Below are positions 12,699 through 55,923 of a stretch of 57,852 nucleotides of DNA, piece after piece. Positions within the stretch are counted from its first letter, which is position 1. Every line of letters begins with the position of its first letter. Position numbers and translations under genes: made by a program. The stretch covers positions 1-57,852 of IMG/VR virus record IMGVR_UViG_3300008110_000418; one strand, written 5' to 3'. Source of the stretch: a virus. The notes under the pieces were generated by a model that was not told the origin of the DNA, made no database searches, and saw nothing but the letters and a program-made list of their open reading frames with translations.

Positions 12699-12704
12699 GT
12701 GATA

Positions 12705-12712
12705 AATAAATA
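12705..12712 (+). promoter_or_regulatory. Late promoter AATAAATA for the 12718 gene
   Basis: The box is 5 bases before the ATG at 12718. An overlapping GATAAATA lies at 12701-12708. It is divergent from, and interleaved with, the queC promoter. Confidence 0.65.
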
Positions 12713-12717
12713 TAGTT

Positions 12718-13536
12718 ATGTCCAAGCTTAAACAAATTTTCCTATCTACTCTTCGAGAGGCTGACGAAGAAAAAACATATGATCCTACTGCAGATGAAGT
12801 GCCTCTACGCAGCAGGCTTGAGAATGATGACATTGAACCAGATGCTCTTGATGTAGAACCAGGCCCTCCGAATACAGGATATAAAGCTGAAGTCGAGGCT
12901 GCTAAAAAATGGATTACTGAAATTGAAAGATTCGTTGAATATTTAAATGACATTGACCAAGGATCAATCAACCGCCAAATTAACGTGCTCGACAGAGACA
13001 ATAGTGTCTTTAAAGGCATTGCTTCACGTATTTCGGATAAGATTGCACGTGTATCATCTGACCTCGCTGAATTAAAAGAAATTATGGCTGGATTTGTTAT
13101 CGCATCTGATCGCAAAGCTAAAAACATTCGCCTTTCAGATTCATTAAGTGTTGCTGATGTTGTAGTCGAAACGTTGTCGAGAATCGGCTTTGAAACAACA
13201 TATTCAAGCCCAAAATTATGTCGTATGGTACTTGAGACCACAGAAGGCGAACTTAAAGCTGAAGTTCATGAAGACGGTACTGTAAACGGCGAAAGCATTG
13301 ATGCTTATTTAGATCGCCTTGCATCTGAATATGATATCAATGCAATTATCGAAGATGATGTTCTTCATGAAGAAATTGTGATGGATGAAAAAATCCTCAA
13401 ACAAATCAAAGAAATTGATGATAAACTAGCGGTGCAGTGGAATCAAGATTTGTATGCAAAGCGCAAAGCTCTCCAGTCAAAAATGGAAACAAATTATATT
13501 GATGTCGCGAAAAGCTTAATTGGCGAAAAAGATTAA
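12718..13536 (+). CDS. Unknown late protein with capsid-targeting-like N-terminus
   Basis: This 272-residue acidic protein starts MSKLKQIFLSTLREADEEKTY. The first 14 residues form an amphipathic basic segment ending L-R-E before A, which fits the (L/I)-x-E cleavage rule of the T4 prohead protease. The rest is helical, with coiled-coil-like stretches around 60-130 and 220-260, and shows no catalytic motif. It is a single-gene unit with a late promoter. Its stop codon overlaps the stop of the convergent primase gene. An internal head protein is a reasonable guess from the N-terminus and late promoter; no homologue is recognised. Confidence 0.65.
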   Translation: MSKLKQIFLSTLREADEEKTYDPTADEVPLRSRLENDDIEPDALDVEPGPPNTGYKAEVEAAKKWITEIERFVEYLNDIDQGSINRQINVLDRDNSVFKGIASRISDKIARVSSDLAELKEIMAGFVIASDRKAKNIRLSDSLSVADVVVETLSRIGFETTYSSPKLCRMVLETTEGELKAEVHEDGTVNGESIDAYLDRLASEYDINAIIEDDVLHEEIVMDEKILKQIKEIDDKLAVQWNQDLYAKRKALQSKMETNYIDVAKSLIGEKD

Positions 13537-14561
13537 GACTTCATATACGACATCTTAGCATCTAATCCTTCTTTTGCGTAATTGAGAATTAGTTGATAAG
13601 GAAATTCATTCTTGTTTTTATCAATGCATATTTCATTGATGTCTTTATATTGCCAATTTGGCCATATAAAAACTGTTTCTCCTCTGTCAACTAATTCGAG
13701 AAATTTATCTGTCACCTCTTCATTTTGATCTTGATAGGGATTGTCTAGCACCCATATAATTTTATAAAAGTCAGATAATGCTTTGATTTGTTTCTCTTGC
13801 TTTGTTGTGTAGTTAATACCAGCAACTGCAACTCCATTCTTCACAAAACATGCATCAATCGGCCCTTCAAATACAAAGATATATGGAATATCGGGAGTGA
13901 TATTACTGATATTGAAAATGGTCTTGTCTGAATTAATCTTTGATAGATATTTTGGCCCATCTTGATCTGCTTGAATTTTTCTTGATTGATAAAATTCAAC
14001 ATTCTTACCAGACTCATCGTAAAAAGGAATAATAATTCTATTTCGATGAAATCGATCCTTATGAGAATAATATAATGATTTTGGTCTATTAATTGCCGTG
14101 TCTAATTTTCTTGATCGAATATATTCATCAGCATCGACAACATTACGGTCACTTTTGTAAAAGTCGATAGTATTTTCATCTAAGAGATCAATGCAATCCG
14201 TTGGAATTGCTGGTGTGTCATTTGTGTATTTTTTGTTATCTACCTTTTTAAAGAATCGTCCACTTGGTTCTGTTTCAAATCCATAATTGGTTCTTGCTTC
14301 ATTAATGATCTGTGAGGGAGACATATTTGATGCCTCTTTAATCCACCATAATGCTGACCATGAGCCTTGGCAATTATGACAAAAGAAACTATTGGTTTGT
14401 GGGTAATAATACAGTCTCTTCTTTTTAAGCCAAGATTTACCTTCCCTGCAAATAGGACATGATGCATTGTATTTGTCTCCTACGCGACGAGGCTTGCCCG
14501 CATATAAAAAGAACTTTTCCAGTACATATTCGACTGGTAATATATTGTCGTATTCTCCCAT
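13533..14561 (-). CDS. DNA primase (gp61-like)
   Basis: This 342-residue DnaG-type primase makes RNA primers with the gp41 helicase. It has an N-terminal zinc ribbon (CPICREGKSW and FFCHNCQGSW, four Cys), a linker, and a Toprim core with IFVFEGPIDACFV (catalytic Glu) and KIIWVLDNPYQD (acidic pair replaced by D-N). The frame is open to 14618, but I chose ATG 14561 (MGEYDNILPVEYV). It has AGAGG 4 bases upstream, one of the few good Shine-Dalgarno sequences here, and leaves room for the divergent gene. Helicase gp41 is at 47840. Confidence 0.88.
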   Translation of the reverse strand: MGEYDNILPVEYVLEKFFLYAGKPRRVGDKYNASCPICREGKSWLKKKRLYYYPQTNSFFCHNCQGSWSALWWIKEASNMSPSQIINEARTNYGFETEPSGRFFKKVDNKKYTNDTPAIPTDCIDLLDENTIDFYKSDRNVVDADEYIRSRKLDTAINRPKSLYYSHKDRFHRNRIIIPFYDESGKNVEFYQSRKIQADQDGPKYLSKINSDKTIFNISNITPDIPYIFVFEGPIDACFVKNGVAVAGINYTTKQEKQIKALSDFYKIIWVLDNPYQDQNEEVTDKFLELVDRGETVFIWPNWQYKDINEICIDKNKNEFPYQLILNYAKEGLDAKMSYMKS

Positions 14562-14571
14562 TGCCTCTAAG

Positions 14572-14579
14572 TATAAATA
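14572..14579 (+). promoter_or_regulatory. Late promoter TATAAATA for the baseplate cluster
   Basis: A perfect box 6 bases before the ATG at 14586, opening the long plus-strand baseplate/hub gene run. Confidence 0.75.
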
Positions 14580-14585
14580 ATTACT

Positions 14586-14960
14586 ATGAATTATAGCGAG
14601 CTGATTGCTTTTTATCAACGGAATTTATTAGGAGAAAAGGATTACCGTGGTTTTGACCCTTATCGAAAATTAGGCCAAGATCAAGGATCTATGAATATTA
14701 CAGCCAAAAAAGATGAAAATAAATATAGGCCATACAATCAAAGCTCTAGTGAATTATCAACCGACACTGACCAACAGCTTAAAAAAATAGATGTCACCCG
14801 CATTGGCTCAACTTTGCCGATTTCTGAAATTGTTGCGAGAGAATTAATGTCATACTACAACATCAAGGTCAGTGCAGAAGAGCCACAAAAAATGATAGAT
14901 TCAAAAAGCAATTTATCATTAAATTTTGGAGAGAATGGTTATTATCTAAGAAAAAATTAA
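14586..14960 (+). CDS. Unknown late protein at head of baseplate cluster
   Basis: This 124-residue protein (MNYSELIAFYQRNLLGEKD) is polar, rich in Ser, Asp and Lys, with a C-terminal region LPISEIVARELMSYYNIKV and a final tyrosine-rich end. No motif is recognised. It is the first gene after a perfect late promoter, and the next gene starts one base after its stop, so it is probably a tail or baseplate component. Its function is not inferred beyond that. Confidence 0.65.
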   Translation: MNYSELIAFYQRNLLGEKDYRGFDPYRKLGQDQGSMNITAKKDENKYRPYNQSSSELSTDTDQQLKKIDVTRIGSTLPISEIVARELMSYYNIKVSAEEPQKMIDSKSNLSLNFGENGYYLRKN

Positions 14961-14961
14961 A

Positions 14962-15744: not shown

Positions 15745-15752
15745 ATTACTAA

Positions 15753-16544: not shown

Positions 16545-16569
16545 CCCACGTGTAAATTAATTGAAAGAC

Positions 16570-17394: not shown

Positions 17395-17408
17395 CTTTTA
17401 TAATCAGC

Positions 17409-17416
17409 CATAAATA
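17409..17416 (+). promoter_or_regulatory. Late promoter CATAAATA for the tape-measure candidate
   Basis: The box is 6 bases before the ATG at 17423, in the 28-base gap between genes. Confidence 0.7.
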
Positions 17417-17422: not shown

Positions 17423-19603
17423 ATGGCTGAACCCAATCAAGAATCACCAATTAACATTAATCGTGTAAATTTTACTGTTCAAAATTTACAAGATCTTATT
17501 GGGAAGGATCAGGTTGCCAGATTAGCGTCTGTATTAGAAGAACAGTTATCAAAATCGGCTAGTCAATTGAATTTGACTGCACGCATTGATCGTATATTTG
17601 ATCATATGTATAATGCCGATATGCAACGGAAATTAAAAGATCCTGTTGAAAAGGCATTAAGAAATGTATTGTCTAAAATACAAAACATTGATATCGATAC
17701 TAGTCGTAAATTAAGCCTCGAACGCCTCGACATTACTAAGCTCATTGATACGAAAAAACTTACGAGATCGGTATCTGATGATTTAAGAAATAATTATAAA
17801 ACCATTGTCGATAAGGTTTTTAATGCTATCGATATCAATAGTGCAACTATTAAGCCTGTTGATATAGGATCATTTTTTGATCGTGCTGTATTTGAACCCG
17901 ATGATAAATCGATTTCAAAATTTAATGATTTGCGGTTTAAAATTATAAGCCAAATCGAAAACGGAATGAAATCGACTCAAATAAGCATTCCGAAAGAAAT
18001 TGATTTAAGTGCAATCATAAAAGGCAGTCTTGCTGGCATGGATGTGGAATACGATCGATCTGTTCGCAACCAGCTCAATAAAATGAGAACAGCAGTTCTT
18101 GGTAAGATATCCGCTTATGTCAAAAATTTCGACAACAACAAAGATCTATTCAGTGGAGAAATTGACATTCATAATATTATGGATGTCATTATGGGGTCAA
18201 ATAATCCGGAAATGGGTGCATTGTCTTCTTTTAAATTTAATGTAATGAGGTATAATTTGCTGTCTAAATTAGGCAATGCCGTTAAGAATGCAAATTTTCA
18301 TTTTGATGATATCGATATTTTAAAAGTTTTAGGCGATACACCTAAGATGGGATTCTTTGATAGAAAACGCCTAAGCAAATCGAGAGAAAAAATATTAGAC
18401 AAAATCGACAAATATCAACTCGATAAAAATTGGGATTTTGATACAAAAATAGATGTCCTGAAAATTCTCGGCGATAGGCCTGATATGGGGATGTTCAATA
18501 GAATACGCCTGGGTAATTTACGCAAAAGTATACTCGACAAAATCGAATCGCTAGTAGAACGCATGACTAAGAAAGATCTGGTTACTGGTATTGACATATC
18601 GTCTATTTCTGGTATAAACAGAAATCTTGCAAATGCAGTGCCACCGGCATCTAGTGAAAATTCTAGTAATATTTTTACAGATGAGAATAAAATTGTGGAT
18701 GTTCGTCTTGTTGATGTGGCGTGGGATAAATTAGTCAATTGGTCTAATAACGAAATGCAAGGAACGTCAAATAAAGGTGATCAGAGTGATAGTAATCAAT
18801 CTACATTATTTGATATTATAACATCTAAATTAAGCACAATTGTTGCTGCTCTTGTGGGGTTTACTGGTGCTTGGAAAGGAATAGAATATGTCTTAAAAAA
18901 ATTAATTGGAACAACCGATGAAGATTTCAAAGCAGACATCAAAGCTAATGCAGAAGCAATCGAAAAACTAAGTGAATTAAAAGATGGCATACACGAGAAA
19001 CTTATTAAATCAAGGCCAGGTGGTGATCAAGCCCTTAAATATATTGAACAAGCCAAAGAACTAATTAAAAATGAAGCAACCGCATCTGAATTAGGACTTC
19101 CTGCTAATTTTAGTGGTTTTGACCCTAGTTCAATTGCAGCCTTAATCCGAAAAAATAATGGAAGCATAAGCGCCACAGACGGGGAATTGCGTCGAATTAA
19201 TTCACTACCGCCAGAACAAAAAGCAAAAGAAATAAAAATTCTGCAAAAGGATCAAGATGAATATATGAATAATTTTTTACAAGGTAAAAATATCTATCCT
19301 AGCAATACACCAACCCCAACAAATTACAGTCCACCGGCATCAAATGATGTGAAGACATCAATGAACAATACAATAAGTACTGGTATAGAAGATATGACGA
19401 ATATTATTAGCAGCAAATTAGACAAATTAAATTCAACTCTTCCTATGTTCGCTCAGCAAACATCAAGAGAGCCAATGCCTACCATGCAAGCAGGAAATAC
19501 AGGACAGTCTCCTGTAACGGATTTTGGAGGGTCAAGAGACCCTGCATATGAATTTAGAATAAATGCATGGACTCGCATACGAGGAGGTGGAATAATTTCA
19601 TAA
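17423..19603 (+). CDS. Probable tail tape-measure / hub protein (gp29 position)
   Basis: This 726-residue protein is mostly helical and repetitive in charge. It has several related segments of about 60 residues (ILKVLGDTPKMGFFDRKRLSKSREKILDKI and IDVLKILGDRPDMGMFNRIRLGNLRKSILDKI, around 295-380) that look like internal repeats. A hydrophobic segment at about 470-492 (STIVAALVGFTGAWKGIEYVL) would suit membrane insertion during DNA ejection. T4 gp29 (590 residues) sits between hub genes and gp48, as here. The C-terminus is Pro/Ser/Thr-rich and ends in a Gly-Gly stretch. Confidence 0.65.
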   Translation: MAEPNQESPININRVNFTVQNLQDLIGKDQVARLASVLEEQLSKSASQLNLTARIDRIFDHMYNADMQRKLKDPVEKALRNVLSKIQNIDIDTSRKLSLERLDITKLIDTKKLTRSVSDDLRNNYKTIVDKVFNAIDINSATIKPVDIGSFFDRAVFEPDDKSISKFNDLRFKIISQIENGMKSTQISIPKEIDLSAIIKGSLAGMDVEYDRSVRNQLNKMRTAVLGKISAYVKNFDNNKDLFSGEIDIHNIMDVIMGSNNPEMGALSSFKFNVMRYNLLSKLGNAVKNANFHFDDIDILKVLGDTPKMGFFDRKRLSKSREKILDKIDKYQLDKNWDFDTKIDVLKILGDRPDMGMFNRIRLGNLRKSILDKIESLVERMTKKDLVTGIDISSISGINRNLANAVPPASSENSSNIFTDENKIVDVRLVDVAWDKLVNWSNNEMQGTSNKGDQSDSNQSTLFDIITSKLSTIVAALVGFTGAWKGIEYVLKKLIGTTDEDFKADIKANAEAIEKLSELKDGIHEKLIKSRPGGDQALKYIEQAKELIKNEATASELGLPANFSGFDPSSIAALIRKNNGSISATDGELRRINSLPPEQKAKEIKILQKDQDEYMNNFLQGKNIYPSNTPTPTNYSPPASNDVKTSMNNTISTGIEDMTNIISSKLDKLNSTLPMFAQQTSREPMPTMQAGNTGQSPVTDFGGSRDPAYEFRINAWTRIRGGGIIS

Positions 19604-23491: not shown

Positions 23492-26097
23492 TGAAAAAAG
23501 AGTATATCAAAAATTACCTCGGCATCGTCGTACAGAATAACGATCCGCTAAAAAGAGGTCGGGTTAAGGTTTGGGTTCCGCATGTGGAGATGACCGTGTA
23601 TGAAGGATGGAACAACACACAAGAAAATAGGCAATTTAATTTTCCAGGTGCTAATAATTTTTCAGGACTTGATGCTAACATCATTGAACAACTAAGAATG
23701 TCATTGCCGTGGGCTGAAGTTGCAATGCCAATGGTTGGTTCTGGTGGCTCCAGTGGCATATATAATTCGATACTCGATAGAGGTACAATTTCTGATAAGT
23801 CTGAATACCTATCAGAAGGTCTTGATTTTATCGATCAGAAAAAGAAAGATGAATTAGAAAGAGCTAAAAAAGAAATTGGTGAATGGAAACCAATTGATAA
23901 AAATAGGCTCGACCTATTAGCAAGAGAAGATGGCTTGCCTAAAACAAAAGGTAAAAAATTTCCAGAAATGGAAGACGATGTTTTTGTTCTTGGAACTAAA
24001 CCAGCAAAGCTATATCAAGAAAAGCCAGTAGTTGATGCGTTTGCTACTAGCGGTGAAGCACAACTCAATCGATATACTAATCCATATAGTAATCTGTACC
24101 GACCTATGCCATATTCAAATTCTTGCATGGGTTCTTTTAGTATTCCGAATGTAGGTGCGCATGTTTGGGTATTCTTTGAAAATGGTGATCCCCTTAAGCC
24201 TGTTATCTTTGCAGCTTCGTACGGCAAGGAAGATTGGAAATCAATTTATGATAGTCATGAAAATGATAAGTCATCGCTAGGTGCTGCTCCAGATTATCCT
24301 GGTAAGTTTGAAAACGGAACTAATCGTAATGATAAAGAATATCAAGCAAGCCGCGATGACATGATCTACCGCAGCAAGTATTCATTAGTACAGAGAGGAG
24401 GTGCGATTACAATTGTTAATACAACAGAGCGAGAGATTCTCAATTTAACGCATTTTAGCGGTTCATATAAAGAATTCAATAACTACACGAATACTGAATT
24501 TGCCGCGAATAACGATCAACGTCTGGTGATGAATGATGCATTCTATACAGTGAATGGCCACCGCTCGGAGTATGTCGGTGGTGACTATGATATCATCATA
24601 AAGGGTGCTTATCGTGTTACGTTTGGTGATCCTAAAAATCATAAAGAACCGTTGTCACAAATCAAAAGGCTTATGGAAGATTTCCATAAGAAATACAACC
24701 TGCCTTTCGAAATACAAAGATCAATTCTCGATGACTATGGTGGGCAGTCTGGTGAATTCACTTCATGTCCTACCTGTACAAAAGCAATTTATGCTTCATT
24801 AGAAAATGTTGCCGATCAGGTAACTCAATCAATATATTCACCATCATGCCCGTCTGAAACTAATTTAATGCCATCACCCAAAGCCTATTCACTTGTTTCA
24901 GTTCCGACTTTGGAATGTATGACATGTGGCGGCACTGGCAAAAGTCCATCTACTCAAGACGGATCATGGGGACAGAATCCTAACAAAGCAAGCATGACTG
25001 AGGCATTAATTGATCTTCAGAACCGAATGTTTCAATATGAAGAACAATTAGGCAATACAGAAGACAATATTATGAATTATGGCAAGAACCAGCATATTGT
25101 TGTTGGCTCCGAAATGCATGATTTTCAATCCTATCGAATCGATCCTGTTGGTAAAATGGCACCGGCAGGAGTAAAGCTTTCAAGCACTACTGCGTATCAA
25201 AAGATGGCAGCAACGCCATTAGTAGAAAAAGTTCATGTCGATGCACCACCAACTGGTTCGTTTAGTATGGTTTGTGGCTTTCGATATAACCTGTTAGTTG
25301 GTTCTGGTGGTATATCATTAAAGACTACAGGACCTGTAGATATCAGTGGATCTGTTACGACGATTGCAGGCAAACAGGTAGTAGTGTCGTCAGAGAATGA
25401 AGTTTACGTTGATGGTGGTAAACGTTTACAGCTCACTGCTGATAATATTAGTCTTGCACCAAAAGGCGGCAATGGTGCTCAGGTTTATGTTGGTGGTAAT
25501 TTAGAAATAGATAAGAATACTATCGTACGAGGCGGTGCTCACATCGAAGGTGAATTATCAGTACAGCACATTACTGCTCCTATTGAATATCAATCAACAG
25601 AAACAGAGGTTATGGCTGCACACATTGTTGATGATGTTGTGATAGGATATATACCAAATGGCACAGTTTTAGGAATTGATTCTTTGGGTGGTCTTGTGAC
25701 TGCTTTTGGGGATATTCCTATACTCGGTAAAAGCGAACCGATCCCACAAGTGTATACCAGACCTCATTACCATTTATTCAAGAATATACCGTTGCAGCTT
25801 GTTGAAACAAGCACAAGCGTTAGACAGCAAGCAATGGCATTGAACGGAAGTTCGCCTGTTCTAGCAAAACCTAGTGTCTTTTCTTCTGACATGGCAAAGA
25901 AATTTGAAAATGTTGATTTGTCTGTATTGGTGTCAAATGATCCAATTCAATCAACTTCAAATTCTGATGTAACATTGGATTCACTGTTATCTATTGGTGA
26001 AATCATTGCACCTCCTTTAGTTGTAGAATCTCAACCAAAAGAAGCAACATGCCCGATTGTGCATCAATTAAGTGAAGGACTAACGCCTATTGTTTAA
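23491..26097 (+). CDS. Baseplate central spike protein (gp5-like) without obvious lysozyme domain
   Basis: This 868-residue protein opens with the gp5 OB-fold pattern (YLGIVVQNNDPLKRGRVKVWVP) that continues with SLPWAEVAMPM and, after an insert, FSIPNVGAHVWVFFENGDPLKPVIFAASYG near 210-245. Residues about 425-480 hold a cysteine cluster (CPTC, SCPSE, CMTCGGTGK). The last third (GSGGISLKTTGPVDISGSV, then VVVSSENEVYVDGG) is beta-helix-like, as in the needle. T4 gp5 has a lysozyme domain after the OB fold; none is recognisable here. Its stop overlaps the stop of the convergent gene at 26094. Confidence 0.87.
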   Translation: MKKEYIKNYLGIVVQNNDPLKRGRVKVWVPHVEMTVYEGWNNTQENRQFNFPGANNFSGLDANIIEQLRMSLPWAEVAMPMVGSGGSSGIYNSILDRGTISDKSEYLSEGLDFIDQKKKDELERAKKEIGEWKPIDKNRLDLLAREDGLPKTKGKKFPEMEDDVFVLGTKPAKLYQEKPVVDAFATSGEAQLNRYTNPYSNLYRPMPYSNSCMGSFSIPNVGAHVWVFFENGDPLKPVIFAASYGKEDWKSIYDSHENDKSSLGAAPDYPGKFENGTNRNDKEYQASRDDMIYRSKYSLVQRGGAITIVNTTEREILNLTHFSGSYKEFNNYTNTEFAANNDQRLVMNDAFYTVNGHRSEYVGGDYDIIIKGAYRVTFGDPKNHKEPLSQIKRLMEDFHKKYNLPFEIQRSILDDYGGQSGEFTSCPTCTKAIYASLENVADQVTQSIYSPSCPSETNLMPSPKAYSLVSVPTLECMTCGGTGKSPSTQDGSWGQNPNKASMTEALIDLQNRMFQYEEQLGNTEDNIMNYGKNQHIVVGSEMHDFQSYRIDPVGKMAPAGVKLSSTTAYQKMAATPLVEKVHVDAPPTGSFSMVCGFRYNLLVGSGGISLKTTGPVDISGSVTTIAGKQVVVSSENEVYVDGGKRLQLTADNISLAPKGGNGAQVYVGGNLEIDKNTIVRGGAHIEGELSVQHITAPIEYQSTETEVMAAHIVDDVVIGYIPNGTVLGIDSLGGLVTAFGDIPILGKSEPIPQVYTRPHYHLFKNIPLQLVETSTSVRQQAMALNGSSPVLAKPSVFSSDMAKKFENVDLSVLVSNDPIQSTSNSDVTLDSLLSIGEIIAPPLVVESQPKEATCPIVHQLSEGLTPIV

Positions 26098-26420
26098 AAT
26101 GGCAGTTCTTCTGATAGGTAAGAATTAATTAAAGACAAAGCAATGTCTTTTGTATCTTGATCGACACCTTTCTCCCCTAATTCTGCTAGCTTGACTTTGT
26201 CAATGTCGCTGATTTTAGAAGGATCATAAAGCATTGCCCTTGCGACTAATTGCATTAGATTAAGTTCTCCCACATCATCTTGTTCTTCCGTATCAGGAGG
26301 AAGATCTTCTTCTGATTGATTAGGATTACCAGGAAGTTCAGATTGGTTCGGATCTCCTGGTTCTTGTTCAATTAGATATGAACGAATGACACTTTCAAAA
26401 TAGGTTGTAGGTTTTTTCAT
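26094..26420 (-). CDS. Small acidic protein with capsid-targeting-like N-terminus
   Basis: This 108-residue protein starts MKKPTTYFESVIRSYLIEQEP, a short basic-amphipathic segment with an L-I-E site, followed by a Pro/Asn/Gln/Glu-rich linker containing two copies of a GNPNQSE-type motif and then a helical domain (DDVGELNLMQLVARAMLYDP). No enzymatic motif is present. It lies 3 bases after the next upstream gene on the minus strand, so the pair is probably co-transcribed from the late promoter at 26652. Confidence 0.6.
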   Translation of the reverse strand: MKKPTTYFESVIRSYLIEQEPGDPNQSELPGNPNQSEEDLPPDTEEQDDVGELNLMQLVARAMLYDPSKISDIDKVKLAELGEKGVDQDTKDIALSLINSYLSEELPF

Positions 26421-26423
26421 ATA

Positions 26424-26645
26424 TTATAATGAAGAAGTCGATGTTGTTGATTTTAAGGCATCAGCTTTTTTACGAGCTTCCAATGCTTCTTGTTCTTCTT
26501 TTTGTTTTTGTGCCTCTGCAGCTGCTAGTTGTGCGTCTTTAGCTTTTTTCTGTGCAGCTACTACAGTTGGATCCGTTGATGTTGTATCTTCTTCGTCTAA
26601 TTGGCTTAGAAATTCATTGATCGCCATTTCAAATTTGGAACTCAT
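26424..26645 (-). CDS. Small coiled-coil protein, unknown
   Basis: This 73-residue protein starts MSSKFEMAINEFLSQLDEED. Residues 30-65 are a run of Ala/Gln/Lys/Glu (AAQKKAKDAQLAAAEAQKQKEEQEA) predicted to form a single charged coiled coil. The tail is Ser/Thr-rich. It has its own late promoter 6 bases upstream. I-N-E at 10-12 and L-D-E at 16-18 fit a prohead-protease site. A small scaffold or core protein is possible. Confidence 0.6.
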   Translation of the reverse strand: MSSKFEMAINEFLSQLDEEDTTSTDPTVVAAQKKAKDAQLAAAEAQKQKEEQEALEARKKADALKSTTSTSSL

Positions 26646-26651
26646 ATTCTT

Positions 26652-26659
26652 TATTTATT
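26652..26659 (-). promoter_or_regulatory. Late promoter AATAAATA for the 26645 gene
   Basis: On the minus strand, 6 bases before the ATG at 26645. It drives the two small acidic genes. The remaining 167 bases of this gap are T-rich on the plus strand with no reading frame I would call. Confidence 0.65.
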
Positions 26660-26826
26660 GTAATTTGAGCAGACTATGCCTTAAACCCTTTTCTTTTTTG
26701 CTCTTTGATTTATTTTCTTTTTTTAAATCCATATCTCAATGGCTCCCTTTCGCTATTTGCTAGCCCTTATTTCTACATACTCTTCGCTGATTTTTTTAGC
26801 AACGATAAAAATAAATAAAAAATAAA

Positions 26827-27342
26827 TTATTTAAATGTTGTGCTTAAAGCACACTTGACACTTAAATTGTCATTGACCTTTCTTTTTAAGCCAGATAAAG
26901 AATATTGCTCTAGAATATTCGATAATGCATTGAAATTGAACTTCCTCGATTTTTGAATTGCTTCAATAATTTCACCTGGTAAATCATTAAGGTCAAAATT
27001 ATGACTATAGGTAATATATTTTGTCTTGAAAATTTTCTTTAATGCATTTTTTAGTTGCATTATGGCCTTATCAGATTTATTACCAACTGCATTAGTAATG
27101 AAAGTGTATTCTTGTGGTCCACTATCAACGATAACAGTGGAAGCTCCTACTTTGAGCATTAAAATTAAAGTCTCAACAGCACAATGCAGAACTATCTTTT
27201 TGATATCACTTTGAAGACTATTTTCATTAATGCCGTATAAGCTGAAATATTCTTCAATTTTATTCTTGCTTTTGTGAATCAGATCATGCAATAGTATTAC
27301 TTGATAGGAGCTGTAACAATGTTTCAAATTCAAGGCATGCAT
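26827..27342 (-). CDS. Unknown protein downstream of nuclease
   Basis: This 171-residue protein (MHALNLKHCYSSYQVILLHD) is helical, Lys/Asn-rich and has no recognised motif. A central LILMLKVGASTVIVDSGPQEYTF stretch may be a beta-alpha element. It overlaps the end of the nuclease-like gene by 59 bases if the first ATG is used. A later start is possible, but the next good Met lies well inside the protein. It probably belongs to the same transcript as the nuclease. Confidence 0.5.
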   Translation of the reverse strand: MHALNLKHCYSSYQVILLHDLIHKSKNKIEEYFSLYGINENSLQSDIKKIVLHCAVETLILMLKVGASTVIVDSGPQEYTFITNAVGNKSDKAIMQLKNALKKIFKTKYITYSHNFDLNDLPGEIIEAIQKSRKFNFNALSNILEQYSLSGLKRKVNDNLSVKCALSTTFK

Positions 27343-27655: not shown

Positions 27656-27856
27656 TTACACCTTTTTCGGTTCTAATACACCTTTAATTTTTTGACGACG
27701 AAACATTTTACCTTTAAACAAAGCCTTTGGTGCACGAGCATCACCTGGTGCATAATCACCTTTAACACTAATACCAACAGAAGCCGTAGTATTATCTTCG
27801 CCAATAATATTTGCTTTTTGAAGAAGAATGTTATATAGTGTATAAAATTTTGACAT
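27656..27856 (-). CDS. Unknown 66-residue basic protein
   Basis: MSKFYTLYNILLQKANIIGEDN is followed by a Gly/Lys/Arg-rich tail (GDYAPGDARAPKALFKGKMFRRQKIKGV). It has a clear late promoter 6 bases upstream and is divergent from uvsY. The basic C-terminus and late timing suggest a packaged or DNA-associated head protein, but nothing specific is recognised. Confidence 0.6.
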   Translation of the reverse strand: MSKFYTLYNILLQKANIIGEDNTTASVGISVKGDYAPGDARAPKALFKGKMFRRQKIKGVLEPKKV

Positions 27857-27862: not shown

Positions 27863-27870
27863 TATTTATG
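27863..27870 (-). promoter_or_regulatory. Late promoter CATAAATA for the 27856 gene
   Basis: On the minus strand, 6 bases before the ATG at 27856. The box overlaps the ATG of uvsY on the other strand. Confidence 0.65.
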
Positions 27871-35929: not shown

Positions 35930-35937
35930 GATAAATA
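35930..35937 (+). promoter_or_regulatory. Late promoter GATAAATA for methyltransferase gene
   Basis: The box is 6 bases before the ATG at 35944, at the end of a 123-base gap. Confidence 0.7.
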
Positions 35938-38995: not shown

Positions 38996-38998
38996 ATA
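38991..38998 (+). promoter_or_regulatory. Late promoter TATAAATA for the 39006 glycosyltransferase
   Basis: A perfect box overlapping the gp46 stop codon, 7 bases before the ATG at 39006. Confidence 0.7.
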
Positions 38999-39005
38999 CA
39001 AAGTC

Positions 39006-40139: not shown

Positions 40140-40141
40140 CC

Positions 40142-42721
40142 ATGTGGAGAAATGTCTATTACGATAATAGCCGAAAGAAATTATTTTTGTGGAGTTGGGA
40201 TAAGCAAGGCAAGCGCCGAATGTATGACTTTGCCTTTGAACCATTTCTCTATGTAGAAACCACTGATGCAAAAAATGCAGATGGCAAGAGCTTGTTTGAT
40301 ACCAATTTGAAGAAGCTTACTTTCGCGAGTGAAAGCGCTCGTAATGCATATATTAAGCAATCAAATATCCGTAGGCTATTTTACAACCTAAAACCAGAAC
40401 AACAATTTCTTTTAGATCTTTATAGAGACAAGGACTTTGATTGGTCTGAATTGCCATTTAAGGTTTTTTATGCTGACATTGAGGTGTATTCTCCTTATGA
40501 ATTTCCAGAGGCAGATGAAGCAAAACACCCAATCAATGTTGTCACTATTTATGATAGCATTGCACAGACATATCATGTATGGGGATTGAATGATTATGAT
40601 AAGAGCAAGTTGAATGAAGTTCTACAAAAACAGAACATATCACCACTCGACATATCAAAAATCAAATACACACATTGCCGTTCGGAAACAGAATTGCTTC
40701 AGAAGTTTTTAGACTTCTGGACAAATGATTATCCTGATCTAGTGACAGGATGGAATATTGAAGGATTTGATATTCCATATCTCATTAACCGAATTTCATA
40801 TATACTCAGTGAAGCCGATGCAAGATCACTCTCACCAGTCAATAAGCTCTATGTAAGAGAGGGAATTGCTACAAAATTCGGTCGAGAAATTAACAAATGG
40901 TATATTCGAGGGCTTACTTGCCTTGATTATATGGATTTGTATAAGACATTCAGCAGAGGTGAGCAAGATTCTTATTCATTAAATAACATCGCAGCGGTCG
41001 AGCTTGATATTACAAAACTTTCACACAATGCAAGTGACCTTGCGTCTTTGAGTGAAAGTGATTGGAATATGTTTGTCAATTACAACATTCATGACGTAAA
41101 CCTCGTTCGTCTGCTCGATGAAAAGTTGAATTATGTGAACATTGCTCGCTTCTTGGCTTATAAAGGATTTACAAAAATTGAAGATTCTTTAGGCAAGATC
41201 ATGATTGTAACAGGCGCAATGTGTAAGGAAGCAAATCGGCTTGGTAAAATTATTCCAACATTCGCACCTTCAAATTCACAAGAGGATTATGTTGGTGGTT
41301 ATGTTAGAGAACCACAAAGAGGATTGCATGAAGCTGTAGTGTCATTTGATGCTAATTCACTATATCCTAATACAATCATTACACTTAATTTGTCACCAGA
41401 AACAAAAATTGGCAAGATCATTTACAAGGACGATGATGAATGCAGAGTCAAATTTATAAATGGTAAAATACAATCAATGAGCCATGAAAAGTTGCACGAA
41501 TTGTGCTCAAAAAACAATTTAGCATTATCAATGGCTGGTGTCTTATATAGACAAGATGTAAAGGGCATTTGCCCGTCATTTATCGATTCCTTATATCAAG
41601 AGCGTGTTGTTATTCAAAATCAAATTGAACAGCTAGAATCACAGAATTTGAAGGAGAACAAGGCGAAAATTAAGCATCTTGACCAGATGCAATATACGAT
41701 CAAAATCTTTTTGAATTCGGCATATGGTACTTATGCTAACAAGTATAGTCCTTTTTATGACATTGATATGGCGGCGAGTATTACAGAGACAGGACAGGCT
41801 GTAATCAAGCAAGCAGCTGGAGTTGTAAATCAATACTTTATACAAGAACACAATCTCCCTGATAAAGATTATATCATTTATGGAGATACGGATTCGATTT
41901 ATCTTACCATGAAGTCTTATCTTGCAATCAAGCAAGTTACTGTATTGCATGATAATGGAAATGTAACAGAAGAATTTGTTAAAGAAACAGACACTCTGCA
42001 GTCATATATCAATGACAAGATCAATAATTGGGCTCGCAATGTTTTACATTCAACAGATCCAAGATACTTCTTTAAGAGAGAATCAATTTGTGATGCTGGT
42101 CTCTTCTTGGAAAAGAAACGATATATTCTTAGTGTCCGATATGACGGAAAAAGACACAAACACAAATTTAAGTATGTCGGGGTTGAAGTACAGCGAAGCA
42201 CGTATTCCGCAGCAATCAAAACCATGATGAAAGACATTATCATGGAAGTGTTTCGCACCAAAGACAGGCTTAAATCAGATGCCAAATATCGTGAATGTTA
42301 CGAGAGGTTTAAGGAATTGCCTATTGATGAGATTGCTTTCAGATCTTCAATTAAAGACTACGAAAAATATGCAAGCCAATCGGATGGATTCAAAATAGCT
42401 TTGCATACACCTATTCATGTCAAGTCGGCAATTTATTATAATACATTGCTTGAAACATTAAAATTGAAAGCAAAATATCAAGCAATTGTTTCCGGCACCA
42501 AAATCAAATACATCTATACAGGACAAAACAAATACGGCATCAAGTGCATAGGCTTTAATGATACGATTCCAGAAGAATTTGATATTAAAGTTGATGTAGA
42601 AAAAATGTTTGAATCATTAGTTGCACCGTGCATTGAAAGAGTGTATAATTCATTGGGGTGGCAACTGCCTGACATGAGAAGACAATACCAATGTGATTTC
42701 TTAGAACTTTTCGGATTATGA
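40142..42721 (+). CDS. DNA polymerase, family B (gp43-like)
   Basis: This 859-residue polymerase has proofreading exonuclease motifs ADIEVYS at 111-117, TGWNIEGFDIPYL and YNIHDVNLVRLL, and polymerase motifs A (SFDANSLYPN, about 400), B (KIFLNSAYGTYANKYSPF, about 520) and C (YGDTDSIY, about 580). It is close to T4 gp43 in length (898). It is followed, with overlapping stop and start (ATGA), by the dpdA-like gene, so replication and base modification may be co-expressed. The partners gp45, gp62, gp32, gp41 and gp61 are elsewhere in the window. Confidence 0.98.
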   Translation: MWRNVYYDNSRKKLFLWSWDKQGKRRMYDFAFEPFLYVETTDAKNADGKSLFDTNLKKLTFASESARNAYIKQSNIRRLFYNLKPEQQFLLDLYRDKDFDWSELPFKVFYADIEVYSPYEFPEADEAKHPINVVTIYDSIAQTYHVWGLNDYDKSKLNEVLQKQNISPLDISKIKYTHCRSETELLQKFLDFWTNDYPDLVTGWNIEGFDIPYLINRISYILSEADARSLSPVNKLYVREGIATKFGREINKWYIRGLTCLDYMDLYKTFSRGEQDSYSLNNIAAVELDITKLSHNASDLASLSESDWNMFVNYNIHDVNLVRLLDEKLNYVNIARFLAYKGFTKIEDSLGKIMIVTGAMCKEANRLGKIIPTFAPSNSQEDYVGGYVREPQRGLHEAVVSFDANSLYPNTIITLNLSPETKIGKIIYKDDDECRVKFINGKIQSMSHEKLHELCSKNNLALSMAGVLYRQDVKGICPSFIDSLYQERVVIQNQIEQLESQNLKENKAKIKHLDQMQYTIKIFLNSAYGTYANKYSPFYDIDMAASITETGQAVIKQAAGVVNQYFIQEHNLPDKDYIIYGDTDSIYLTMKSYLAIKQVTVLHDNGNVTEEFVKETDTLQSYINDKINNWARNVLHSTDPRYFFKRESICDAGLFLEKKRYILSVRYDGKRHKHKFKYVGVEVQRSTYSAAIKTMMKDIIMEVFRTKDRLKSDAKYRECYERFKELPIDEIAFRSSIKDYEKYASQSDGFKIALHTPIHVKSAIYYNTLLETLKLKAKYQAIVSGTKIKYIYTGQNKYGIKCIGFNDTIPEEFDIKVDVEKMFESLVAPCIERVYNSLGWQLPDMRRQYQCDFLELFGL

Positions 42722-49217: not shown

Positions 49218-49225
49218 GGTAAATA
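49218..49225 (+). promoter_or_regulatory. Late-like box GGTAAATA before the 49232 gene
   Basis: It sits 6 bases before the ATG at 49232, the same spacing as clear late promoters here, though the first two bases are less typical. Confidence 0.4.
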
Positions 49226-49231: not shown

Positions 49232-49519
49232 ATGGAATTTGAACATAATGCGGAATCATCTGAATTTATTGGTGAAAATGAAATAGACGATTTCTTTATT
49301 AAAACATGCTCTTTGATATCCTTATTATCAAACAAAACACTTAGCCCTACATCGATTATCATTACAATGATTCAAAATCCAGAAATGAGACAATTGGTTT
49401 GTGAGATTACAGATATGTCTTATTTTGAATTTGTTAAAAAGATGTCTTACAATTACGATATTGTCAATAGATCCAAAAAAATCCTTTACGCATTAAATAA
49501 GGCAAATGACCGAGAATGA
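49232..49519 (+). CDS. Small acidic protein in the gp33 position
   Basis: This 95-residue protein (MEFEHNAESSEFIGENEIDDFF) has an acidic N-terminus and a helical C-terminal half. In T4 the gene order is 33-59-32, with gene 33 overlapping gene 59; here this gene overlaps a gp59-like gene by 14 bases, followed by gp32. gp33 is the late-transcription co-activator. I see no convincing gp33 sequence pattern and no hydrophobic clamp-binding C-terminus, so the link is positional only. Confidence 0.6.
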   Translation: MEFEHNAESSEFIGENEIDDFFIKTCSLISLLSNKTLSPTSIIITMIQNPEMRQLVCEITDMSYFEFVKKMSYNYDIVNRSKKILYALNKANDRE

Positions 49520-51144: not shown

Positions 51145-51753
51145 ATGACAAAACAAACTTACAATCGAGAAGAAGCCGAAAAGGCTTATGGAGGATTTCT
51201 CAAAGCTCTTGGCTTTAATTGGCGAGACAATCCACACATGAAAGATACACCGAAGCGTGTAACCAAAGCATGGATTGAGGATCTTGCAAAAGGATGTTTT
51301 GAAGACACACCAAAAATTACTTCATTTGAAAATGATGGCAGTTATGATGGTATTGTATGTCAAACAAATATTCCTGTCGTGTCGATGTGTGCTCATCACA
51401 ATTTGCCATTCTTTGGATATTGTCATGTTGCATATATTCCGGAGAAAGACGGCAGGGTGGTAGGGCTTTCAAAGCTTAATCGTGTAGTTGATCATTTCAG
51501 CAGAAGACCACAAGTGCAAGAGACATTGACAATGGAAATACACAACTTTATTAATAATCTTTGTGAGCATAACAAAGGTGTATCAGTTCTAGTTGAAGCA
51601 AATCACACATGTTGTTCTCTTCGCGGTATTAAGCAAAATTCAACCATGAGAACTGCAAAGATGTCGGGTGCATTTATTGATCCACAAAACAACAGCCGCA
51701 ATGAATTTTACAAATTTGTAGAGTTTGCACAGTCAAGCCGTAGTTTAGTTTAA
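51145..51753 (+). CDS. folE: GTP cyclohydrolase I (FolE)
   Basis: FolE converts GTP to dihydroneopterin triphosphate, the first step of both folate and 7-deazaguanine synthesis. This 202-residue enzyme has PVVSMCAHHNLPFFG (zinc ligands C82 and H85), GLSKLNRVVDHFSRRPQVQETLT at 107-129 and EANHTCCSLRGIK (zinc ligand C156), all catalytic segments intact. It starts 8 bases after gp32 and ends one base before the next gene. Together with QueC and DpdA it points to deazaguanine production rather than folate. Confidence 0.97.
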   Translation: MTKQTYNREEAEKAYGGFLKALGFNWRDNPHMKDTPKRVTKAWIEDLAKGCFEDTPKITSFENDGSYDGIVCQTNIPVVSMCAHHNLPFFGYCHVAYIPEKDGRVVGLSKLNRVVDHFSRRPQVQETLTMEIHNFINNLCEHNKGVSVLVEANHTCCSLRGIKQNSTMRTAKMSGAFIDPQNNSRNEFYKFVEFAQSSRSLV

Positions 51754-51754
51754 T

Positions 51755-53042: not shown

Positions 53043-53064
53043 TTTAACCTAACACACAAACAAC

Positions 53065-53424
53065 ATGGCAAATAAAAATAAACCAACCAATGAGAGCTAT
53101 TTCGTCAAGAGACTTCGCGATAGTGGTTATCTTGTAGATAGGCTTCCAATTCGATATGGACAACACGACCCACGAACTTGGTCGGTTGTTATCGACCAAG
53201 GACATTCATCAGTCATTGCGACCTTATTTCGCAATTTAGATGGCGTCGATGAAAACTATATTGAATTTTATGACGGAGATCAATTTGTACCAAAGAGATT
53301 CCGTTTGACTACTGATTCGATGGAAGTGATCATGGAGTGGCTGTATAAGTTTGGCATCAATAATAAGACAAACTTATACAATATGAGAAGTGAAAACTAT
53401 CAGCCACCCACATCGGATCAATAA
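53065..53424 (+). CDS. Unknown protein
   Basis: This 119-residue protein starts MANKNKPTNESYFVKRLRDSGY. It looks like a compact alpha/beta domain (TWSVVIDQGHSSVIATLFRN, YIEFYDGDQFVPKRFRL, MEVIMEWLYKFGI). No motif is recognised. It lies 22 bases after gp45 with no Shine-Dalgarno sequence, and its stop overlaps the late promoter of the next gene. Confidence 0.6.
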   Translation: MANKNKPTNESYFVKRLRDSGYLVDRLPIRYGQHDPRTWSVVIDQGHSSVIATLFRNLDGVDENYIEFYDGDQFVPKRFRLTTDSMEVIMEWLYKFGINNKTNLYNMRSENYQPPTSDQ

Positions 53425-53427
53425 ATA
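53420..53427 (+). promoter_or_regulatory. Late promoter AATAAATA for the 53433 gene
   Basis: The box is 5 bases before the ATG at 53433, overlapping the upstream stop codon. Confidence 0.6.
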
Positions 53428-53432
53428 AATAT

Positions 53433-53792
53433 ATGAAGAAAAAATCCAAACCATCAGATTACGATTTGCATAAATCACTCAATGATCTTTCATCGCAATT
53501 ACAAAAAGAAGGGTTTGGATTGTCTCCCGAGGAGCTGCAAGAATTAAAAAATGCAGCTGCTCGGGAGTTTAGCTCCCATAAAAGCTTTAAAGAATTAAAA
53601 GACAACAGTCAAAAAATCGTTAATTATTTGGCTGAATATTTTGATACCTTTATTTTGCTTGGATACGATTCTAAAGGAGAAAGAATTCAATTGCAATTTT
53701 GTGATAATGCATTGAAAGAAGACGCATTAATGAAATTTTTAGAACAAGTATTTATCAAATATCACAGACAAAGAAACGAATCAGACACATGA
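53433..53792 (+). CDS. Unknown protein
   Basis: This 119-residue protein (MKKKSKPSDYDLHKSLNDLSS) has a basic start, a charged helical middle and the strand FDTFILLGYDSKGERIQLQF. It is coupled to the kinase gene that follows (4-base overlap) and has its own late box. No function is inferred. Confidence 0.6.
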   Translation: MKKKSKPSDYDLHKSLNDLSSQLQKEGFGLSPEELQELKNAAAREFSSHKSFKELKDNSQKIVNYLAEYFDTFILLGYDSKGERIQLQFCDNALKEDALMKFLEQVFIKYHRQRNESDT

Positions 53793-54502
53793 GAATAGCA
53801 GTAACCGGAACCCAATGTATAGGCAAAACGACATTCATTAATGATTTTTTAATGAGATGGCCGATGTATAAAAGACCCGAAAAGACATATCGTGATTTAA
53901 TTTCGGAGAAAAATATCCAACTCAATCAAGGCGGTACTAAAGAAAGCCAAGAAATAATTCTCGATGCACTTTGCGAACAAGCGGAAGAAAATAAAGATGC
54001 AAAGCATTGTATTCATGATCGGTGTGTAATCGATAATCTTGCATATACCTGTTGGCTTGCGGCCAAGAAAAAAGGTGGGGTTACTGATTCCGATGTCACT
54101 GCAGCTATTCTTCAAGCACGAATGGCTCTCAAGTATTATGATGTTATTTTCTTTTTGCCTGTTTCGACAACATCACCAATTGCAATTGAAGCAAAGGAAA
54201 ATAGAGACATTGATCTAGACTATCGGAATGAAATTGATCATTTCTTAAAAGCATTCAATGTTGATTATATTCAAAAGAAAGGCAAAATTTTTCCAACAGA
54301 AGATTGCCCTGCCGTCATTGAAGTTTTTGGTGATCGATCAGAAAGACTTCATTTAGTGTCGCTATATGTCAATGAACAAGGCAATGCATATGATGAAAAA
54401 GAAGGCTCATTAATTTCTTTTGATGGATTTACAGATGAAGAAGAAATGTCTGAATTAGAAAAGAACGAAATTTTGCGCCGTTTGACAGGTCCTAATTCAT
54501 AA
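53789..54502 (+). CDS. AAA_28/NadR-type P-loop kinase
   Basis: This 237-residue protein begins MRIAVTGTQCIGKTTF (P-loop at 6-14). It has RPEKTYRDLI, HDRCVIDNLAYTCW, YYDVIFFLPV and an intact lid (ENRDIDLDYRNEIDHFLKAF), the layout of AAA_28-type nucleotide or nicotinamide-riboside kinases. It is the intact relative of the broken kinase at 43523. The C-terminus is acidic and specific to this copy. The substrate is unknown; nucleoside or nucleotide phosphorylation is likely. Confidence 0.8.
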   Translation: MRIAVTGTQCIGKTTFINDFLMRWPMYKRPEKTYRDLISEKNIQLNQGGTKESQEIILDALCEQAEENKDAKHCIHDRCVIDNLAYTCWLAAKKKGGVTDSDVTAAILQARMALKYYDVIFFLPVSTTSPIAIEAKENRDIDLDYRNEIDHFLKAFNVDYIQKKGKIFPTEDCPAVIEVFGDRSERLHLVSLYVNEQGNAYDEKEGSLISFDGFTDEEEMSELEKNEILRRLTGPNS

Positions 54503-54517
54503 ATAGACAACCTTGCC

Positions 54518-54525
54518 AGTAAATA
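54518..54525 (+). promoter_or_regulatory. Late promoter AGTAAATA for the repeat protein
   Basis: The box is 5 bases before the ATG at 54531. Confidence 0.6.
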
Positions 54526-54530
54526 AATAC

Positions 54531-55923
54531 ATGGATATTTTACGTCTTTATAAATTTATCAACGAAAATACCGTTACAAGCATCTTCAATGAAGATGAAG
54601 TGATGGATGAAATGGCACAAATTACTGGCGATTTGGGTGCTGCTATTAGAGCCGCATACGAAAAGCACAAAGATCAACCTGATAATGTTGTCAGATCAAT
54701 GATCAAAAGTGACCCTGAAGTAAGAAATGCATTACAAGGCCAAAAGTTGCATGATAACCAACTAAACAACTTTATCAAAAATGCACGAGCTGGTAAAGAG
54801 CAAAGAACACGAAATGTTGCAAAAGTATACAATGCAGAGCCAAAGACCGTAAAACCATCAACCGAACCGACAACAAGCCAAGGAGATGATGAATATACTT
54901 GGACTGCAGATCAACCAAGTGATGAAGACGAGATTAAAGAAATGGCTCAAATTGCTGGTGATTTGGATACTGCAATTCGTTCGGTTATTGATAGCAATCG
55001 AAATCTATCCGATTCCGATCTTCGTCGCTTAATTCGTCGCGATCTTGCAGTCAGAGACGAACTTGAAAGAACAGGAGAAAAACTACACGACAATCAATTA
55101 AATCGTTTCATTGCAAAGGTTAAGGATGGCAAACCAACAGTCGCACCAAAAGCAGCGGAGCGTGAATGGTCTGAAGAAGAACCAGATAAAGCCGAAATCG
55201 CTGCAATGGTTCGCAAGACAATGGCAAATAAAGCAGGCCGTGCACTAAGTCTTGGATCTGGATTAAAACCAGCCCAGCTAGAAGACATTCTTACCACTCT
55301 CGATGCTGTTGAAGACAACGAAAGAGCATTTGAAGAAATCGCAAAACAACTTGCAGATGATTATGAGTTAACACCAGATGAAGTCAAATCTATCTATCAC
55401 CAAGAGAAAAGCGGCGAACAAGGATACGACGATGAAAGCGACATCCCAGAACCGACAGACAAGGAAGATGAGTATGCACCAAAGCTAAAAATTGATCTTC
55501 CTGAACCATCAACACAATCTGCTTCTAAAGCAGTATTTGACAAGGCATCTATTCTATTCTCATTCAAGATGGGCGAGACCTCTTCCAGCTGGTGCTGAAT
55601 ATGGCGAGCCTGGTAAAGCAAGAACCGACACATCAAAAGAAATGGAAAGAGAAATGGATATTGACTATAGTTCATTCCAAAACTTTGCTCAAACCTTTAG
55701 TGAAGGTATTAAGACACTCAAATCGACAGTTATTACAAGATATCCACAGCAAATTCAATTCAGTGAAGAATTCGTCAATAAATTAGCCGAAGAGTTCTTC
55801 AATCATAACGTAGTATCCGAAGATAGAGGTACAATTCGGAATCTCGAAGAGAAAATGCTCAAAGCGTTAAGAATGCACATTCACGAAATTGCAAGACAAT
55901 ATCGAGAAGCACAACAACAATAA
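54531..55923 (+). pseudogene. Late repeat protein with capsid-targeting-like N-terminus, split by a frameshift
   Basis: From ATG 54531 (MDILRLYKFINENTV) the frame encodes two related repeats of about 65 residues and an acidic C-terminal region, then stops at 55598 after a short unrelated tail (GETSSSWC). In the +1 frame, sense resumes as RPLPAGAEYGEPGKARTD and continues MDIDYSSFQNFAQTFSEGIK to a stop at 55921-55923, just before a terminator. Removing one base near 55575 (GGCGAGACC) would yield about 463 codons. The N-terminal I-N-E site fits a prohead-protease signal. No enzymatic motif is seen. A TTG at 54513 is not used. Confidence 0.7.
54606..55133 (+). repeat. Two protein repeats within the 54531 gene
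   Basis: Residues 26-89 (54606-54797) and 136-201 (54936-55133) share EMAQI-x-GDL-x-x-AIR, a VR/LR-x-x-I-x-x-D segment and KLHDNQLN-x-FI. They are separated by a Thr/Asp-rich linker. Confidence 0.85.

Follow-up and report, generated by a model that had tools for sequence, protein, structure and literature searches.

TAAATA boxes placed close to start codons predict leaderless or near-leaderless late mRNAs in a T4-superfamily phage

We analysed the virus record IMGVR_UViG_3300008110_000418 of IMG/VR (57,852 bases, 34.6% G+C; this whole stretch is called the window), in which the hexamer TAAATA, the core of the late -10 box of phage T4, stands 5-7 bases before the ATG of twelve open reading frames (ORFs). 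On the strength of this arrangement, the window phage very probably makes its late mRNAs with no leader or with one of about 1-2 bases, the start codon lying near the predicted transcription start (+1). The observations are the box sequence, its spacing, its partial conservation, Shine-Dalgarno (SD) motifs at background level and, in the relative G6, two classes of box with different spacings.

Distance between TAAATA and the start codon

Of the 72 TAAATA hexamers on both strands of the window, 12 have the ATG of an ORF of at least 60 amino acids at 5-7 bases (here and below, only ATG starts were counted, except in the test of alternative start codons). The circular-shift control gave a mean of 0.76 and a maximum of 5, none of 2000 shifts reaching 12. 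The distance histogram contains 4, 7 and 1 sites at spacings 5, 6 and 7, in comparison with 0.29 per bin at 10-40 bases; the preliminary description of this DNA had proposed a whole-genome scan of box-to-start distances against controls, in which a sharp peak at 5-7 would support its reading, and a local peak of this kind was found in the window. At spacings 5-6, the 14 other hexamers made of the same letters reached a mean of 1.43 and a maximum of 5, in comparison with 11 for TAAATA. Extending the range to 5-7, the best of them were ATAAAT (8) and AAAATT (7) versus 12 for TAAATA, and ATAAAT is the TAAATA box read one base to the left.

In the T4 late box, the first two bases are numbered -13/-12 (PMC2988020, a review); therefore the box TATAAATA ends at -6, so that a spacing of 5 puts the A of the ATG at +1 and a spacing of 6 puts it one base later. 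The start-point distance taken from T4 in the preliminary description agrees with this numbering. When T4 was scored as the window was, its boxes peaked at 25-29 bases from the ATG (9 sites at 28), and 28 of the 44 T4 sites at 14-45 bases had an SD-like motif in the leader; the boxes of the cyanophage Syn9, like those of T4, lie mostly 20-30 bases from the ATG. SD-like tetramers were found before 146 of 218 T4 genes (26 in the control stretch, 40-55 bases upstream), bearing out the contrast already drawn with T4 as a phage that uses SD leaders, and before 3 of 63 window genes (control 5), with no GGAG or GAGG before any window gene. Values for the relatives were 17 of 172 in G2 (control 12), slightly above the control, and 23 of 283 in G6 (control 40), and no SD excess was read in either. 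These counts drop genes that start less than 60 bases from a record end (25 bases in the main window and T4 count). The complete lack of SD motifs at sites with spacing 4-8 (HTVC008M, Mosig, G8, G13, T4, G6 and the window) is an effect of the short stretch and is no evidence. Two marks of leaderless mRNAs, a -10 box at start-point distance from the start codon and SD motifs at background level, are found in the window.

PHROGs matches in the window comprise a T4-type terminase, the late sigma factor gp55, the tail tube, the DNA polymerase gp43, UvsX, a primase, helicases and SbcCD-like genes. By these comparisons, the virus is a T4-superfamily phage distant from named phages, to which its gp43 is at most 31.5% and its terminase at most 33.3% identical among the matches listed; nothing with at least 60% identity to its gp43 or terminase was present among 2580 and 2528 records, respectively. 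Two relatives are independent: G2 (195,888 bases; gp55 73% and gp43 79% identical to the window) and G6 (221,292 bases; terminase 50% identical over part of its length, gp43 37%). The 71-kb contig L001 (G1) holds nearly the same virus as the window and for this reason was not counted as independent; its offset to the window drifts from 12988 at the first window base to 12715 near base 55001, and therefore indels separate the two. G5 and G10 add little, since they are fragments very close to G2. Three records were analysed in part: Mosig to base 140000 of 141461, G6 to 220000 of 221292 and G13 to 320000 of 328603.

Late TAAATA boxes at spacings 5, 6 and 7 numbered 17, 7 and 3 in G2, 40, 7 and 11 in G6 (with 2 at spacing 4) and 4, 2 and 0 in G10; in the cultured pelagiphage HTVC008M, 12 sites have spacing 5 and one has spacing 7, with 6 left empty. 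The totals of 27 in G2 and 58 in G6 compare with shift means of 1.88 and 2.93. No shift out of 2000 reached the observed value in the window, G2, G6, G10, G8, G13 or HTVC008M, and the numbers that did so were 223 in G9, 841 in T4, 1581 in XG4, 1690 in Syn9 and 2000 in both phiM9 and G12. The sharp peak named in that proposal is present in the independent relatives G2 and G6, standing at 5 there and not spread over 5-7 as proposed.

The placement is not restricted to late boxes, and in this respect the preliminary description had understated it: the relatives' early promoters are positioned in the same manner. In G2, the early box TATANT lies exactly 5 bases before the ATG of an ORF of at least 40 amino acids at 53 sites, and in G6, TATAAT lies exactly 6 bases before such an ATG at 54 sites, the neighbouring spacings holding 5 and 4. 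Sigma70 -10 boxes end at -7. With the T4 late box ending at -6, both G6 modes, 5 for late and 6 for early boxes, therefore put the ATG at +1; the early mode of G2 is one base short of the sigma70 geometry, an offset within the usual scatter of start-point choice. TTGA at 15-19 bases was found at 29 of 53 early sites in G2 and 14 of 54 in G6, and at 1 of 12, 3 of 24 and 4 of 41 late sites in the window, G2 and G6, respectively. ATG dominates at the mode, and GTG, TTG, CTG and AAG are not enriched, with the exception of three GTG ORFs at spacing 6 from TATAAT in G6. The window itself has nine TATANT boxes 5-6 bases before an ATG (shift mean 2.0; 0 of 2000 shifts), for instance those of the genes at 11923-12663 (-) and 55961-56701 (-), so it may have leaderless early or middle promoters too. 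T4 has a single TATAAT at 5-6 (1764 of 2000 shifts).

Further features of these two records were noted. In G6 (L107-L111; 134-214 kb, mostly on the - strand), many TATAAT boxes have GGAAC, rather than a -35 TTGA, about 5 bases upstream, which is perhaps a site for a phage activator. In G2 (L019-L020; 178-189 kb), the spacer from TTGAC to TATATT in the early promoters contains a common motif resembling CAACCCTCAGC, and a repeated gene family starting with ATGCCAAAAGTG or ATGATCAAAG, each copy with a near-identical promoter, occupies 0-1.4 kb and 192-195.6 kb.

Genes preceded by late boxes and their conservation

All ten TAAATA boxes listed in the preliminary description are present in the window at spacings of 5, 5, 6, 6, 6, 6, 6, 7, 5 and 5; a weaker eleventh has spacing 6 and a conserved box in G2, and a twelfth site was added here. 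The gp55 gene reported at 29701 was likewise recovered (29701-30255, +; PHROG 234, E = 3e-22), and the gp55-like protein encoded there is the presumed reader of the boxes. On the - strand, the core at 1864-1869 lies 5 bases before ATG 1858 of the tail tube gene (1226-1858; PHROG 45, E = 3e-19), which would start at the predicted +1. The longest possible start of that ORF is at 1921 and not at 1858; the G2 tail tube gene aligns from residue 1, but has TAATTA where the window has TAAATA. The core at 26652-26657 (-) is 6 bases before ATG 26645 (5 in G2) of a 73-amino-acid gene (26424-26645) with a predicted near-leaderless late mRNA. The one at 27863-27868 (-), 6 bases before ATG 27856 of a 66-amino-acid gene (27656-27856), was not found in G2; the divergent starts 27856 (-) and 27868 (+; gene 27868-28263) have 11 bases between them, and this box overlaps the start codon of the + strand gene by one base.

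On the + strand, the core at 12707-12712, second of a tandem TAAATAAATA, lies 5 bases before ATG 12718 (4 in G2) of a gene of unknown function (12718-13536), whose late mRNA is predicted to be leaderless. Near-leaderless late mRNAs are predicted for the genes at 14586-14960 (core 14574-14579, spacing 6; 8 in G2), 17423-19603 (726 amino acids; core 17411-17416, spacing 6; 5 in G2), 35944-36537 (core 35932-35937, spacing 6; no reciprocal-best relative in G2) and 49232-49519 (95 amino acids; core 49220-49225, spacing 6; conserved, 5 in G2). The core at 38993-38998 stands 7 bases before ATG 39006 of a glycosyltransferase-like gene (39006-40139; PHROG 7162, E = 1.6e-15) and is not kept in G2. The twelfth site, TAAATA at 49494-49499, 6 bases before ATG 49506, is not kept there either and is possibly due to chance. 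Leaderless late mRNAs are predicted for the genes at 53433-53792 (119 amino acids; core 53422-53427, first of a tandem box, spacing 5, not kept in G2) and 54531-55598 (core 54520-54525, first of a tandem box, spacing 5, also 5 in G2). Owing to the tandem TAAATAAATA, the box register is ambiguous at 12718, 53433 and 54531. Gene calling that took no account of motifs gave the same start at 10 of the 12 sites and left uncalled 49232 and 53433, which both have reciprocal-best relatives in G2.

Box genes are at the heads of transcription units. The upstream neighbour is on the opposite strand in 3 of 10 window late-box genes, and the other seven begin a median of 28 bases after the previous gene. 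Gaps of less than 12 bases to a same-strand gene were found for 2 of these 7 versus 32 of 42 boxless genes, for which the median gap is 1 base.

Conservation was assessed on reciprocal-best pairs with a box at spacing 4-8 by Fisher's test. Among 61 window-G2 pairs, both members had a box in 6, only the window gene in 6, only the G2 gene in none and neither in 49 (p = 1.7e-5); one of the window-only boxes precedes the gene at 4642-7152, at spacing 8. Among 75 G2-G6 pairs, the values were 6 for both, 2 for G2 only, 13 for G6 only and 54 for neither (p = 0.0026). The orthologue spacings differ by at most 2 bases, which indicates that the element is kept and its exact base is not fixed.

Boxed genes of G6 and G2 were checked for function on proteins picked by hand, mainly by length. 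Ten early-box G6 proteins include dUTPase, single-strand binding protein, UvsX, thymidylate kinase, a glycosyltransferase, tRNA nucleotidyltransferase, a phosphoesterase and one with a Fe-S redox family as its second match, while two match families of unknown function only; the G6 DNA polymerase gp43 also carries an early box. Ten late-box G6 proteins comprise a tail fibre, a head-tail adaptor, ribonucleotide reductase, a homing endonuclease, one with an endonuclease as second match and five unmatched proteins. The ten late-box G2 proteins comprise a baseplate wedge, a head maturation protease, a weak RNA ligase match, two unknown families and five unmatched.

Several gene sets and searches concern the viruses more broadly. 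The window encodes QueC-like, aminotransferase-like and GTP cyclohydrolase genes (10629-12663 and 51145-51753), which suggests 7-deazaguanine synthesis and possibly DNA modification. In G6, 39 tRNA genes and a tmRNA were called by ARAGORN at 125.5-143.2 kb (L107, L108), although some of these, tRNA-Pyl(cta) and tRNA-Tyr(ata) for example, could be false calls; 29 tRNAs were called in G2, and G8 also carries a tmRNA. Searches bearing on the host found no psbA (PF00124) in the six records G001, G002, G006, G007, G008 and G013, no WhiB (PF02467) in G000, G001, G002, G006, G007 and G008, and no match of two exact tRNA patterns to genome contigs; ribosomal protein bS21 is present in 2 of 8 records, HTVC008M and Mosig only.

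Weighing the leaderless reading

A number of observations weigh against late mRNAs without leaders in this phage group. Conservation is incomplete: 11 of the 12 window sites have a G2 orthologue, 5 of which lack a box, and among 40 window-G6 pairs the counts were 2 for both, 5 for the window only, 6 for G6 only and 27 for neither (p = 0.61), with 2 of 7 boxes kept. Several late-box genes are non-virion genes, namely the glycosyltransferase in the window, ribonucleotide reductase and endonucleases in G6, and 5 of 12 in HTVC008M. The shift results are weak in G7 (1 of 2000), G5 (7) and Mosig (91), and G12, a 32-kb relative with no SD excess, has no site at spacing 5-7; within the clade lacking SD excess, three of the six records have a strong peak, G5 and G7 a weak one and G12 none. 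Some same-letter hexamers come near TAAATA at spacings 5-6, with ATAAAT at 14 vs 24 in G2, 11 vs 12 in HTVC008M and 9 vs 12 in G8, and ATAATA at 40 vs 47 in G6, and in Mosig TTAAAA exceeds it (11 vs 6). By our reading of these motifs rather than by computation, the ATAAAT and ATAATA scores mostly reflect the late and early boxes read in a shifted register. The early sites of G2 are not independent, because there are repeated gene families among them. Finally, the window mode is 6; strict T4 geometry then gives a single-base leader, unless the start point is displaced by one base.

One more count of this kind comes from dropping the ORF filter: any ATG at 5-7 bases then follows 14 window boxes, in comparison with a mean of 7.7 and a maximum of 17 in 200 first-order Markov sequences treated in the same way. 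That such sequences reach 17 is what would be expected if an AT-rich hexamer recurred by chance in an AT-rich genome and a reader looking for it had singled out the fitting copies. The raw number of motifs with an ATG is therefore ordinary, and what stands out is that the ATGs concerned are the starts of genes. We regard chance as vanishingly improbable, as it is contradicted by the shift, same-letter and neighbouring-bin controls and by the replication of the pattern in G2, G6, G10, HTVC008M, G8 and G13.

The AT-rich element might instead be a translation signal, a context for SD-independent initiation as in Bacteroidia, with the true leaders starting upstream. Bacteroidia ribosomes fail to recognise SD sequences (PMC9976891), and the upstream regions of boxless genes are A/T-rich and G-poor as well. 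Against this, the exact hexamer matters in the window (11 vs 1.43 for same-letter hexamers, a contrast that is smaller in some relatives), and T4 late boxes have it as their core. G6 contains two hexamers whose spacings differ by one base, the early one before DNA polymerase, UvsX and single-strand binding protein, TTGA at promoter distance is commoner at early than at late sites, and the same late spacing is found in HTVC008M, G8 and G13, which use SD motifs. A translation signal is, in view of these data, quite unlikely.

It could also be argued that a compact genome by itself puts late promoters near genes, giving short functional leaders of varied length with no selection on the exact spacing. 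This would fit the range of spacings, 5-7 in the window and 4-8 among orthologues, and also the distances from boxes to the first ATG. Counted in bins of 0-3, 4-7, 8-13 and 14-43 bases, these were 15, 106, 39 and 52 in the set with no SD excess (window, G2, G6 and G10), so that 39 sites correspond to leaders of about 3-8 bases, a further point against a strictly leaderless class. The corresponding counts were 10, 20, 13 and 48 in the pelagiphages, 1, 14, 0 and 24 in G8, 1, 18, 0 and 41 in G13, and 16, 14, 18 and 176 in the leadered set (T4, Syn9, XG4 and G9). In G8 and G13, an empty interval thus separates the leaderless sites from the leadered ones, and this absence of sites at 8-13, followed by 24 and 41 at 14-43, together with the sharp G6 modes (40 TAAATA at 5 and 54 TATAAT at 6), makes genome compactness alone a very unlikely explanation. 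The empty bin of G8 and G13 parallels Lactococcus cremoris, in which no leaders between 4 and 14 bases were described (PMC10986495).

In a gp43 tree, the records with no SD excess (window, G2, G5, G6, G7 and G12) form one group with support of 100/100, so the loss of SD motifs marks a clade. A single origin of the leaderless layout was considered and set aside: the tree needs 4 label changes in comparison with 4.3 in shuffles, and therefore says nothing on the number of origins. In this tree, G5, G7 and Mosig were given the leaderless label despite weak single-genome evidence. XG4 (split polymerase), G1 (near-copy of the window) and G10 (no polymerase match) were left out of this tree, and G1, G6 and G12 (by choice) and G5 (no match) out of a terminase tree. 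The G6 terminase matches two ORFs about 800 bases apart (38652-41562), which suggests an insertion such as an intron or an inserted gene. Similarly, gp43 is interrupted in G2 (two ORFs at 115426-118347) and enlarged in G5 (23876-27128; 1083 amino acids vs 859 in the window), which points to inserted sequence, for example an intron or intein.

Altogether, the spacing peak, its recurrence in relatives and the background level of SD motifs support the proposal, made in the preliminary description, that late promoters are placed so as to give leaderless or near-leaderless mRNAs, as far as predicted 5' ends can tell. For the mechanism, we infer start points, recognition by gp55 and initiation at a 5'-terminal AUG as follows. 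A gp55-type late sigma factor would read TAAATA with no need for a -35 element; with the box held 5-6 bases from the ATG, transcription would begin about one helical turn away, on or just before the A of the ATG, and the relatives' sigma70-type early promoters would be positioned likewise. The ribosome would then initiate on the AUG at the 5' end, with no SD pairing involved. Genes further along the operons, which also lack SD motifs, would presumably be reached by coupling or by SD-independent initiation typical of the host; since these boxless genes lack SD motifs, the host presumably tolerates SD-free initiation or coupling is used. With slightly less than even confidence, we extend this to one branch of the T4 superfamily in which the whole programme, early and late, would be leaderless and the start codon would double as transcription initiator, the pelagiphages, G8 and G13 having a leaderless late class beside a leadered one; initiation at a 5'-AUG might then be a separately regulated channel of phage translation.

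Comparison with known systems

T4 serves as the textbook example of how a phage times its genes with mRNAs that have SD leaders, and the window phage and its relatives seem to run a rebuilt form of this programme, in which leaders for ribosome binding are lacking. With T4 late transcription (gp55, gp33 and gp45; box TATAAATA), the window shares a gp55 homologue and the TAAATA core. The likeness is less clear for the box as sole promoter element, since no -35 was seen (TTGA at that distance at 1 of 12 sites) but the full 8-mer is rare, and for the genes served, which include virion genes (tail tube in the window, protease and baseplate wedge in G2, and tail fibre and head-tail adaptor in G6) but also a glycosyltransferase, ribonucleotide reductase and endonucleases, many others being unmatched. 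Unlike in T4, the distance from box to ATG in the window is 5-6 bases, SD motifs do not exceed background, and the outer TA that completes the T4 8-mer precedes TAAATA at only 3 of 12 sites.

Leaderless phage programmes are already known. In the Thermus phage phiYS40, middle and late mRNAs are mostly leaderless, and IF2 goes up and IF3 down (PMC3594737); the window phage resembles it in that most mRNAs of a temporal class are leaderless, here by prediction. Unlike phiYS40, the layout is predicted here for gp55-type late promoters and, in relatives, for early ones, and a gene for the IF3 C-domain was found in none of 6 records. Mycobacterial leaderless mRNAs have a -10 box upstream of an RTG at +1 (PMC4633059), and the likeness lies in a -10 box whose distance to the start codon is that of a promoter to its start point, with no SD motif; the difference is that those are cellular genes with RTG starts, whereas here almost only ATG is used and no WhiB gene was found in the 6 records searched. 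That phage transcripts are often leaderless has been remarked in passing (PMC5312081). Among T4-like phages, 15 late promoters were described in the methylophage Melnitz by a search for the T4 box, with no mention of leader length in the part of that paper available (PMC9004378). Searches of the open-access literature turned up no paper that describes leaderless promoters for T4-like phages.

A cultured counterpart is the ocean phage HTVC008M, which shares with the window phage group a TAAATA exactly 5 bases before 12 annotated genes: all 12 ATGs are coding-sequence starts annotated by others. Seven belong to virion genes (tape measure, DNA end protector, head closure, tube cap, two baseplate wedge and tail completion) and the others to a 2OG-Fe oxygenase, CsgF, an adenylate/guanylyl cyclase, a hypothetical protein and a transcriptional regulator. 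The divergent starts 18916 (-) and 18943 (+), with 26 bases between them, each have their own box at spacing 5. HTVC008M differs from the window in having SD-like motifs in 95 of 171 genes, and therefore two classes coexist in it. In a survey of pelagimyophages, the prediction of middle and late promoters was unsuccessful (PMC7029224). If the leaderless reading is true, it may explain that failure, the box would help to locate late genes and the starts of genes in T4-like phages known from uncultured material, and HTVC008M on Ca. Pelagibacter ubique would be a cultured system for the translation of leaderless mRNAs during infection.

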